From positions 1-64,000 of the forward strand of contig NZ_JPVN01000013.1 in assembly GCF_000772945.1 (NCBI RefSeq): DNA of 64,000 bases, given 5' to 3'. Each line of letters opens with the position of its first letter. The stretch's first letter is position 1. Shown here piece by piece: positions 34,599 through 58,087 of the stretch. This stretch comes from Ureibacillus manganicus DSM 26584. Lineage in GTDB: Bacteria > Bacillota > Bacilli > Bacillales_A > Planococcaceae. The notes under the pieces were generated by a model. It searched no databases, was not told the DNA's origin, and was given only the letters and a program-made list of their open reading frames with translations. The translations under genes and the position numbers were made by a program.

Positions 34599-34835
34599 TT
34601 GAATCCACTAGTAGAATTTTGTATTAGTAATCTAGCAAACGGTGCACAAGAAACCTATGATATATTAGAAAACGATCCAAATGTCGACGTGCTTGAATAT
34701 GGTTGTTTAAGTTACTGTTCTGTTTGTGATAGCACTTTATATGCACTCGTTAACGGTGATATTGTGGAAGCAGATACACCTGAAGAGTTAACGAAAAAGA
34801 TTTATCAATATATAGAGGAAAATCCTCTTTTCTAA
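34599..34835 (+). CDS. yuzB: YuzB family protein (DUF1450)
   Basis: A 78-residue protein of the DUF1450/YuzB family, with the spaced cysteines VEFCISN near residue 8 and [11 protein letters not shown] near residues 33-43. The pattern suggests metal or cluster binding, but no function is known. TTG 34599 follows AGGTGAAC. It is divergent from yutJ and is followed by a terminator, then the 52-bp hairpin array. Confidence 0.85.
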
Positions 34836-34837
34836 AT

Positions 34838-34881
34838 AAAGGACGATTCGAAAATTAGTTACTTTTTTCGAATCGTCTTTT
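34838..34881 (+). terminator. terminator of yuzB
   Basis: GACGATTCGAAAA (34842-34854) pairs with TTTTCGAATCGTC (34865-34877) and is followed by TTTTAATTT. Confidence 0.85.
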
Positions 34882-34939
34882 AATTTATTATATGAGGGAT
34901 GCGGGTTAAGGGACACTATCTTTCGAAATCCTAAGGAAT

Positions 34940-35780
34940 TGTCTAGTAAATGCGATTTACTGGACAAAACTTTTGGATATCCCGAAAAGGTGTCTAGTAA
35001 TGAGGGGTTACTAGACAATAAATTTAGAAATCCCAAGTAAATGTCTCATAGAGGCGCTTCTACTAGACAGTACCACCACGATTTTCACGCCAACTGTCTC
35101 ATAGAACACTTCTACTAGACAATACCGCCTGCGAATTCCTTCCAAATGTCTCATAGAACCCTTCTACTAGACAGAACAGCCTGCGAATTCCTTCCAAACG
35201 TCTCATAGAACCCTTCTACTAGACAGAACAGCCTGCGAATTCCTTCCAAATGTCTCATAGTACCCTTCTACTAGACAGAACAGCCTGCGAATTCCTTCCA
35301 AACGTCTCATAGAACCCTTCTACTAGACAGAACAGCCTGCGAATTCCTTCCAAATGTCTCATAGTACCCTTCTACTAGACAGAACAGCCTGCGAATTCCT
35401 TCCAAACGTCTCATAGAACCCTTCTACTAGACAGTACCGCCTTGATTCTCACTCCAAATGTCTCATAGAACCCTTCTACTAGACAGAACAGCCTGCGAAT
35501 TCCTTCCAAACGTCTCATAGAACCCTTCTACTAGACAGTACAGCCTGCGAATTCCTTCCAAATGTCTCATAGAACGCTTCTACTAGACAGTTCAGCCTGC
35601 GAATTCACTCCAAATGTCTCATAGAACCCTTCTACTAGACAGTTCAGCCTGCGAATTCACTCCAAATGTCTCATAGAACCCCTCTACTAGACAGTACAGC
35701 CTGCGAATTCACTCCAAATGTCTCATAGAACCCTTCTACTAGACAATACCGCCAAAATTTCCCTTCCAATTGTCTCATAG
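34940..35780. repeat. 52-bp tandem array of imperfect hairpins
   Basis: Sixteen repeat units plus a 10-base partial, starting at 34940, 34991, 35042 and 35095, then every 52 bases to 35771. Each opens with an imperfect dyad (TGTCTCATAGAA, three bases, TTCTACTAGACA) followed by a spacer usually reading CAGCCTGCGAATTCC. The two leftmost units are diverged but keep better-paired arms; 34991 has TGTCTAGTAA and TTACTAGACA exactly. A further relic may precede 34940. It fills the gap between convergent yuzB and yutF. No spacer diversity, so not CRISPR. No open frame persists through it. Confidence 0.95.
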
Positions 35781-35794
35781 ATCGTCCATCTTCT

Positions 35795-36562
35795 TTACAG
35801 CTCTACCTCATCCAAATCCGCAACACAATACGTCGGTATTGCATCTTTCTCCAAGGCAACTTCAGTGCTTGTCACACCTGTATTTACATGAATAGTGTCA
35901 CATCCAAAACGAACCCCGCACAAAATATCTGTATCATAATTGTCTCCAATCATGACCATATCTTCTTTATCATAGCCATATTCTTCTTGGATTACTTCTA
36001 ACATGACTGGTGAAGGCTTTCCGATAAACATTGGCTCTACACCGGCAACACCAGCAACTAACCGCACAAACGAGCCGTTTCCTGGTAAGAAGCCAAGTTC
36101 AGTTGGGAATTTTATATCTTCATTTGTCCCGATTAATTTTGCTCCATTTTGTACAGCCATGCTTGCCTTAGCCAGCTTCATATAATCCACTGCTCGGTCG
36201 ATCCCCATGACTACAACATCTACTTCAGATTCATTGGAAATAGTGATTCCTTCTTCTTTAAAAGCGGTTTCTAATCCCTCAGAACCAATCATATAAACTT
36301 TTGCTTCTTTGTAATTTTGCGCCACGTATTTTGCAGTAGTTATGGCACTTGAAAAGATTCTAGAGCGATCTGTTTCAATCCCAATATCACCCAAAGCTTG
36401 TTGTAATTGTGATGGAGTTTTCGAAGAATTGTTTGTAATAAAGTAATATTCAAGCCCTTTTTCTTGCAGACGATGAACAAAACGAACTGCAGATTGAATT
36501 CCTTCTTTCCCTCTATACACAGTTCCATCTAAATCAAAACAATAGGCTTTATAAGTTTTCAT
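35795..36562 (-). CDS. yutF: HAD-superfamily IIA phosphatase (NagD/YutF-like)
   Basis: A 255-residue haloacid-dehalogenase hydrolase. Motif I CFDLDGTVYRG carries the nucleophile Asp near residue 10; FITNNSSK is motif II; and KPSPVM with MIGDNYDTDI near residue 200 completes the site. The C2-type cap between them places it in the NagD/p-nitrophenylphosphatase group, which dephosphorylates small sugar or nucleotide phosphates. Its start overlaps the yutE stop by four bases. It ends at the edge of the hairpin array. Confidence 0.9.
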   Translation of the reverse strand: MKTYKAYCFDLDGTVYRGKEGIQSAVRFVHRLQEKGLEYYFITNNSSKTPSQLQQALGDIGIETDRSRIFSSAITTAKYVAQNYKEAKVYMIGSEGLETAFKEEGITISNESEVDVVVMGIDRAVDYMKLAKASMAVQNGAKLIGTNEDIKFPTELGFLPGNGSFVRLVAGVAGVEPMFIGKPSPVMLEVIQEEYGYDKEDMVMIGDNYDTDILCGVRFGCDTIHVNTGVTSTEVALEKDAIPTYCVADLDEVEL

Positions 36563-56899: not shown

Positions 56900-58087
56900 A
56901 TGAATAAATATTTTTTGATACTACTAGCTTTATGTTTTACCCTACTAACAGCATGTAACAGTACTACCGTTCAAAATGAAGGGTCAAATGAAATTGCAGA
57001 AGAACAAACAAAATTAAAAGTTTACACTACCGTATATCCGTTAAGCTATTTTACGGAACGTATTGGTGGCGAGTTTGTTGAAGTTAAATCCATTTACCCT
57101 CCAGGTTCCAACGAACATACATTTGAACCAACGCAACAAGATATGATTAAGATTGCAGAGGCAGACGTGTTATTCTATATAGGGTTAGGTCTTGAAGGTT
57201 TTATTGAACAGGCACAAGAGGCATTGAATGGCCAAAAAGTTGAGTTTATTGCCACTACAGCTAATGTACCTGAAAAAAAGTTTAATATGAGTACAGGTCA
57301 TTCACATGATGAACACTCGGGAGATGGTCTAGATTCTCATACAGAGGATGAACATTCTGAACATAGTGAAGATGCTCATACAGAGGGTGAACATTCCGAA
57401 CATAGTGAAGATGCTCATACAGAGGATGAACATTCCGAACATAGTGAAGGTGAGCATTCAGAAGATGATCATGCTCACGAGGAAGTAACTAGTGAATCTA
57501 AAGATGAGCATTCTTCCCACGATGAAGACAGTCATGAAGGACATCATCATCACCACCATGAGATAGATCCTCATGTTTGGCTATCTGTATCAATTTCTGA
57601 AGATCTTGCATTATCCATCAAAGATGCACTTACAAAAAAAATGCCCGATCAAGCTGATACATTTGAAGCAAACTATCAAACTTTAGTAGAAGAATTAAAA
57701 GCTTTAGATGATAAGTTTAAAGAAATGGTGGCTCTAGCTGACACACATACATTTTTTGTATCACATGCTGCATTTGGATACATAGCAGGTGAATACAATT
57801 TAAAACAAGTACCTATTGCCGGTCTGAATTCTCAAAGTGAACCTTCACAAAAGGAATTAACGGAAATAGTTGATCTAGCAAAGGAATTAAATATTAAAAA
57901 TATTTTATTTGAACAAAATGTTTCCTCAAAATTAGCTGAAATTATTCAATCCGAAATCGGAGCTGAAGCGTTGATTTTGCATAATCTAAGTGTACTTACA
58001 AAAGAAGATATTGCTAGTAATGAAACATATTTCACCTTAATGGAACAAAATATCGAAACTTTAAGTAAAGCTTTAAGCAATAAATAA
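56900..58087 (+). CDS. znuA: zinc ABC-transporter binding lipoprotein with long His-rich insert
   Basis: A 395-residue lipoprotein (signal MNKYF..., lipobox LLTAC with Cys about residue 19) of the cluster 9 metal-binding family that delivers zinc to ZnuBC. Predicted ligand regions are NEHTFEPTQQD, IDPHVWLS and FFVSHAAFGY. Between about residues 130 and 225 is an unusually long His/Asp/Glu/Ser-rich loop, partly three 39-base tandem repeats (57341-57457) followed by six His in a row. GAAGGGAAG precedes the ATG. No znuB or znuC adjoins, so its permease is encoded elsewhere. Confidence 0.92.
   Translation: MNKYFLILLALCFTLLTACNSTTVQNEGSNEIAEEQTKLKVYTTVYPLSYFTERIGGEFVEVKSIYPPGSNEHTFEPTQQDMIKIAEADVLFYIGLGLEGFIEQAQEALNGQKVEFIATTANVPEKKFNMSTGHSHDEHSGDGLDSHTEDEHSEHSEDAHTEGEHSEHSEDAHTEDEHSEHSEGEHSEDDHAHEEVTSESKDEHSSHDEDSHEGHHHHHHEIDPHVWLSVSISEDLALSIKDALTKKMPDQADTFEANYQTLVEELKALDDKFKEMVALADTHTFFVSHAAFGYIAGEYNLKQVPIAGLNSQSEPSQKELTEIVDLAKELNIKNILFEQNVSSKLAEIIQSEIGAEALILHNLSVLTKEDIASNETYFTLMEQNIETLSKALSNK
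57341..57457 (+). repeat. 39-bp tandem repeat inside znuA
   Basis: Three direct copies starting at 57341, 57380 and 57419, each encoding about TEDEHSEHSEDAH, differing at a few bases. They expand the metal-binding loop in frame. Confidence 0.93.

Follow-up and report, generated by a model that had tools for sequence, protein, structure and literature searches.

The gap between the convergent genes yuzB and yutF of Ureibacillus manganicus DSM 26584, within the 64,000 nucleotides of contig NZ_JPVN01000013.1 analysed here (the window), is occupied by a tandem series of short palindromic units, and the question it raises is what such an array is and at which level, DNA or RNA, it might act. The answer that we favour, with a probability of roughly 36%, is that it is one copy of a family of dispersed, replication-polar, hairpin-capable arrays at the level of DNA, recognised more by structure and geometry than by sequence. 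A structure that is kept while its letters are free to change, a period of five helical turns, polarity, a position beyond terminators and transposon homing that is independent of sequence all point to the DNA level, and suggest a chromosome feature that has not been described; a description of this repeat family was not found in the open-access literature. Interspersed palindromic repeats as such are already known. We know of no repeat, however, that combines a five-turn period, covariation of the arms between arrays, an orientation set by replication, and near-exclusive homing of transposons to two array classes that are unrelated in sequence.

The layout of the locus, and the sites of related features in other genomes, are collected in Table 1. 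The preliminary description had put the array at about 16 units with a near-constant 52-base period, with exact arms at 34991 and left-edge units that pair as well as or better than the others, and this account holds up. TRF reports the homogenised part (35039-35781, period 52, 14.3 copies, 90% match, score 1100), and a covariance model places 16 dyads between 34940 and 35745; the first unit-to-unit step is 51, the following one 51-53, and thereafter it is 52. On the left, two units differ in their arms from the rest and pair better, the first (34940) with 12 pairs including one G.T; in DNA folding the left three units reach z = -5.5 as compared to about -2 for a single internal unit, and single-unit hairpins are predicted, as DNA, to be modest (about -3 to -6 kcal/mol). 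No long open reading frame spans the array, as had been claimed; an 82-aa minus-strand frame (34788-35036) overlaps the two left units only. The layout of repeat and spacer is of CRISPR size, and CRISPR-like false arrays are often misannotated (PMC5294841). In the window the spacers are repeated, near-identical copies and not unique, which rules out a CRISPR array in line with the original reading.

Table 1. Features of the yuzB-yutF gap in the window, and loci of IS256-family copies and second-class arrays
Feature	Position or locus	Strand	Remarks
yuzB-like gene (NF010190 / PRK13669)	34599..34835	+	converges on array
Hairpin + T-run 3' of yuzB (GACGATTCGAAAA...TTTTTTCGAATCGTCTTTT)	34842..34881	+	read from sequence
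Whole array	34940..35781	minus = polar ('A') strand	16 dyad units, ~52-bp period, plus terminal half unit
Unit 1, divergent arms TGTCTAGTAAATGCGATTTACTGGACA	34940..34966		sequence, fold; covariance model match 34934-34972
Unit 2, exact arms TGTCTAGTAATGAGGGGTTACTAGACA	34991..35017		sequence, fold; covariance model match 34985-35023
Units 3-16, locally homogenised TGTCTCATAGAACCCTTCTACTAGACA + 25-bp spacers	35042..35745		reverse strand: TGTCTAGTAGAAGGGTTCTATGAGACA
17th, terminal half dyad TGTCTCATAGA	35771..35781		sequence; yutF stop codon 13 bp further
yutF-type HAD-IIA hydrolase gene (TIGR01457)	35795..36562	-	converges on array
IS256-family copies in 51-52-bp class	L302, L303, L306, L307, L309-L316, L318, L319, L321		
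IS256-family copies in other tandem arrays	L304, L305, L317		
Second-class arrays	L243 3697-4882, 10043-11315, 17322-18549; L167 5735-6258; L193 5355-6020		
Further second-class arrays	L156 17605-17890; L095 18937-19277; L141 16460-16788		

The array is not confined to this gap. A DNA search of the same genome returned 28 matches, which fall in the window array and at about a dozen other sites, and roughly 30 arrays are present in the stretches around search matches and others, array totals per genome being lower bounds. By sequence search, 12 of 25 Ureibacillus genomes match a composite built from several unit classes; with the covariance model, 15 of the 25 have units, as does one genome from another genus, which contains a 52-bp array. 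In a sequence search of 200 genomes of the family the matches were confined to Ureibacillus. The closest relatives of YutF are Ureibacillus proteins (82% for U. acetophenoni), and the orthologous yutF-yuzB gap of U. acetophenoni carries 52-bp arrays with wholly different arms, TGTCCATTATAGGGGATATAAAGGACA and TGGTCCTGATCGACCTTATCAAAACCA. In other relatives this gap is shorter, at about 30 to 470 bp; it has no 52-bp array and in most cases contains a terminator hairpin. At several further orthologous sites, two or three species have arrays whose units have changed. The patchy distribution across the genus indicates that the arrays are not essential. It had been proposed at the outset that a unit found here only, with arms that do not co-vary, would indicate simple slippage expansion; the family is dispersed and constrained and its arms co-vary, and the expansion of a unique unit by slippage was rejected. 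A selfish mobile family, also suggested earlier, may still be an apt description, with the lack of any dedicated transposase found and the presence of arrays at orthologous positions across species arguing against it. In the complete genome G022 about 17 arrays (16.5 kb) lie within 400 kb (3.82-4.22 Mb, L168-L187), far above the 2.9 kb of array per 400 kb in an even sample of that genome. This stretch precedes the skew switch, but the arrays of G015 and G013 are spread out, and we therefore do not claim enrichment at the terminus.

Independent arrays, when oriented by the purine-rich spacer, align without gaps on a unit of a 27-bp dyad (the length of most dyads) and a 25-bp spacer, with the consensus GAA(A/C)-TGTC-YYR-TAGAA-GCG-TTCTA-YRR-GACA-AAA(C/G), then about 17 variable bases, then GAA. 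Within the dyad the outer arms TGTC...GACA and an AAGSG-type loop are conserved and the mid-stem co-varies; across arrays GCG is followed by T in 31 cases, C in 22, G in 15 and A in 2, and the middle base varies between C and G. Seven of the 11 stem pairs change on both sides between arrays, pair 14-26, for instance, being UA in 44 array consensuses, GC in 13, CG in 3 and AU in 1. Among 66 array consensuses standard pairs make up 88% of paired cells, double-sided changes occupy 71 cells as compared to 22.6 in shuffles, and covariation stands at 0.335 as compared to 0.131 when shuffled and at most 0.112 with the partners slid; the dyads were located via pairing, which inflates the percentage paired, and a fairer gauge is how far covariation exceeds its values under sliding and shuffling. 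RNAalifold proposed no consensus fold on the array consensuses. Between arrays, the mid-stem positions are about as variable as a large part of the spacer. Within arrays (626 units, 56 arrays) variation is about 0.05 per site at variable stem positions as compared to 0.12-0.15 in spacers, a two- to threefold difference, which is what selection on pairing, and not on letters, would give. The covariation and the low within-array variation of the stems lend support to the earlier suggestion that the structure is maintained. As to which strand folds, and whether as DNA or RNA, consensus counts on the polar strand favour G.T over A.C (59:24), but in the mutation-controlled test single-arm changes within arrays show no significant preference (55:40 in arms and 192:186 in spacers; p = 0.25). 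Nor are the outer arms fixed, since they too can change with pairing largely kept; 52-bp arrays at L157 3266-4166, L202 7884-8730, L204 8799-9137 and L283 have alternatives to TGTC/GACA (GGTC/GACC, GCGTTT/AAACGC and, in the other genus, CGGGC...GACCG).

The arrays also have a direction. Judged by local GC skew, the purine-rich strand is leading-sense in 35 of 36 arrays in G022, 24 of 28 in G000 and 17 of 22 in G001, some of these counts being two halves of one array split by an insertion. Every array cluster of G015, a complete genome that was outside the model building, follows the leading strand: clusters at 0.24-1.64 Mb are on the plus strand and those at 3.19-3.48 Mb on the minus strand, and the skew changes sign between 1.3 and 1.9 Mb. 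The opposite polarity is seen in about 10% of arrays, and in the window array itself the purine polarity is weak. In convergent and divergent gaps taken together, which have no overall direction of transcription, 24 of 27 arrays are concordant with replication and 3 discordant, and between two lagging-strand genes five arrays are concordant as compared to one that is not. The purine bias of the spacers is more than background: the purine fraction on the leading-sense strand is 0.757, as compared to 0.523 (sd 0.04) for the remaining intergenic DNA of G022. At forks it is the lagging-strand template that is exposed as single-stranded DNA, and this template is the leading-sense strand. Neither this polarity nor the helical phasing and IS256 homing set out below appeared in the preliminary description.

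The period is 52 bp in 84 of 92 catalogued arrays and 51 bp in the other 8. Fifty-two base pairs amount to five helical turns, and A/T dinucleotide steps recur once per turn (10.4 bp). The 10.4-bp harmonic accounts for 38% of the phase-coherent A/T-step signal and is the strongest in 42 of 64 arrays as compared to about 16% of random sequence, a count in which the 64 are not independent tests since the arrays share descent; about half of the unrelated classes show the phasing, and it is missing in some divergent ones.

Two transposases of the Mutator/IS256 kind (PF00872) occur in G022 in five and six copies, and all five of the one type and five of the six of the other lie inside tandem arrays. 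All six copies of a related IS256-family element in G013 are within 51-52-bp arrays, and those of G001 (2/2) and G000 (1/1) lie within tandem arrays or between them, some of these arrays belonging to a second class, for a total of 19 of 20 IS256-family copies. In the G022 stretches examined the arrays make up 2.2% of the bases yet contain 6/6 copies. The transposases are about 401 and 411 aa long, and where junctions were read the target duplication is about 8 bp and differs in sequence from site to site. Because the duplicated targets differ, a sequence is less likely as the common targeting factor than a structure or a protein bound there. Arrays of the second intergenic class in the genus are built from direct repeats of about 20.6 bp, equal to two turns; they have no dyad and show higher-order periods of 42, 61-63, 82 and 102-105 bp, and they too are struck by IS256-type elements.

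If the arrays are recognised at the DNA level, a passing fork might expose the lagging-strand template and allow the units to fold into hairpins; alternatively, within the same model, the units might stay double-stranded and together form one face of the helix, covered by protein. Some host factor, whether it serves replication, repair, topology or the nucleoid, could then bind the repeated sites, tandem copies would raise its occupancy, and IS256 transposases might use the bound protein or the structure as a safe landing site. This leads us to speculate about a bacterial satellite-like chromosome domain that is replication-polar, conserved in structure and geometry and bound by a fork or nucleoid factor, with IS256 recognising the domain and not its sequence, a picture that we hold as possible, if doubtful. 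Should the arrays bind such a factor, they would provide a testable handle on the marking of direction or topology in bacterial non-coding DNA, and also on the choice of safe sites by IS256.

Alternatively, the array might act as duplex, in the manner of BIMEs, as a series of sites at which gyrase or a bending nucleoid protein relieves torsion between genes that converge or adjoin, with the phasing mattering and the hairpin secondary. The five-turn period with its regular A/T steps would suit such a role, as would the IS256 homing shared by the non-dyad 20.6-bp class. So would the enrichment in convergent gaps: 20 of the 71 context-typed arrays, about 28%, lie in such gaps, which make up 46 of 343 background gaps of at least 100 bp (13%). 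Dispersed copies in other convergent gaps had been named at the outset as a sign of a mobile or structural family. REP/BIME elements are reported to bind gyrase and other proteins and are targeted by insertion sequences, IS256-family members included (PMC1525189). However, the co-varying arms and an orientation that follows replication rather than transcription are left unexplained, arrays are present in divergent gaps too, and we judge this reading somewhat unlikely.

In architecture the arrays are nearest to REP/BIME and STAR (Staphylococcus aureus repeat) and members of neither. Like REP/BIME/REPIN they are clustered extragenic palindromes and insertion sequence targets, but they run head-to-tail and not in alternation, and their sequence is not conserved across arrays. 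Neither of the REP/BIME tags GTAG and CGTC stands beside the stem, where the array flanks are GAA(A/C) and AAA(C/G), and G000 and G022, which are rich in arrays, lack the Y1/RAYT transposase (PF01797) of REP mobilisation. STAR is likewise a repeat of Bacillales, intergenic, with motif and spacer at about 50 nt and with no function assigned. Its spacers do not differ within a locus but do so from one locus to the next (PMC3532100), and those of the Ureibacillus arrays are similarly homogenised within loci and distinct between them. STAR has a fixed 14-bp GC-rich motif and 40-44 bp spacers, whereas the Ureibacillus arrays have a 27-bp dyad with a free mid-stem, a 25-bp spacer and polarity; the motif T(G/A/T)TGTTG(G/T)GGCCC(C/A) has one 1-mismatch match in the window, far from the array, with 1.55 expected by chance. 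Since the defining STAR and REP/BIME motifs fail and the REP transposase is absent from G000 and G022, we file the arrays with interspersed palindromic tandem repeats as a variant. The array loop AGAAGSG resembles Chi and SRS/KOPS, which are also purine-rich and leading-strand oriented; this likeness was rejected, as the loop is neither AGCGG nor GAGAAGGG and has no invariant core word, and outside arrays these two words are not outstandingly skewed.

The arrays might instead be selfish or neutral minisatellites, in which hairpins on the lagging-strand template drive slippage and homogenisation, and correctly oriented hairpin repeats persist without any host function. Local homogenisation with array-specific spacers, the patchy distribution, the orientation bias and the absence of coding content are consistent with this. 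Constraint along the unit is uneven, however (TGTC/GACA, the loop and the AAA and GAA flanks are kept, and the mid-spacer is free), the period is near-invariant across very different sequences, and arrays persist at orthologous sites. We regard a minisatellite of this sort as unlikely; it and the gyrase or nucleoid array are the close rivals of the structure-recognised family that we prefer, and the RNA-level and purely mutational readings are less likely.

An element acting in RNA, with read-through transcription producing chains of hairpins that protect or process mRNA 3' ends, seems improbable to us. It would account for co-varying stems with a conserved loop and for the co-directional gene 5' of the polar strand in 55 of 71 context-typed arrays, and yutF runs into the window array with no terminator of its own found before it. 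The hairpin and T-run 3' of yuzB is, on its sequence, the probable terminator of that gene; a scan of 34780-35850 for intrinsic terminators (GC stem then U-run) found none, its loop limit of 8 leaving this hairpin unscored, and no convincing promoter or terminator lies inside the window array. Against an RNA-level role, an intrinsic terminator comes first at 46 of 78 array-facing gene ends, and therefore most arrays are probably outside strong transcription; a detected terminator is missing at about 40% of these ends, so some arrays may be transcribed. In addition, about nine arrays run antisense to the genes on both sides and seven occupy divergent gaps, and Rfam gave no match above the gathering score in the window, two sub-threshold matches both being centred outside the homogenised array. 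The idea of an ordinary transcription barrier or terminator, the barrier having been entertained in the preliminary description, is not supported, for related reasons: the window array is without a terminator and most array-facing gene ends already have their own. Template switching at quasipalindromes, a replication-strand-dependent process that would keep arms complementary without selection and give covariation with low arm variability, is very improbable, since it leaves the conserved flanks outside the arms unexplained and many arrays carry stem mismatches that have become fixed in their units and have not been corrected (for instance, C5.A23 in 12 array consensuses).

Other tandem repeats were seen in passing. 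A 39-bp repeat of 3.6 copies (AGATGCTCATACAGAGGATGAACATTCCGAACATAGTGA) lies at 57331-57472 of the window, possibly within a gene, its length being divisible by three, and near yutF in Lysinibacillus (L036 1-141 and L038 1833-1935) there are tandem repeats of 36-37 bp (TTTGTAGCTGCCGCTTCGCTTTCGCACAGAAAAAACA) that represent a different repeat type.
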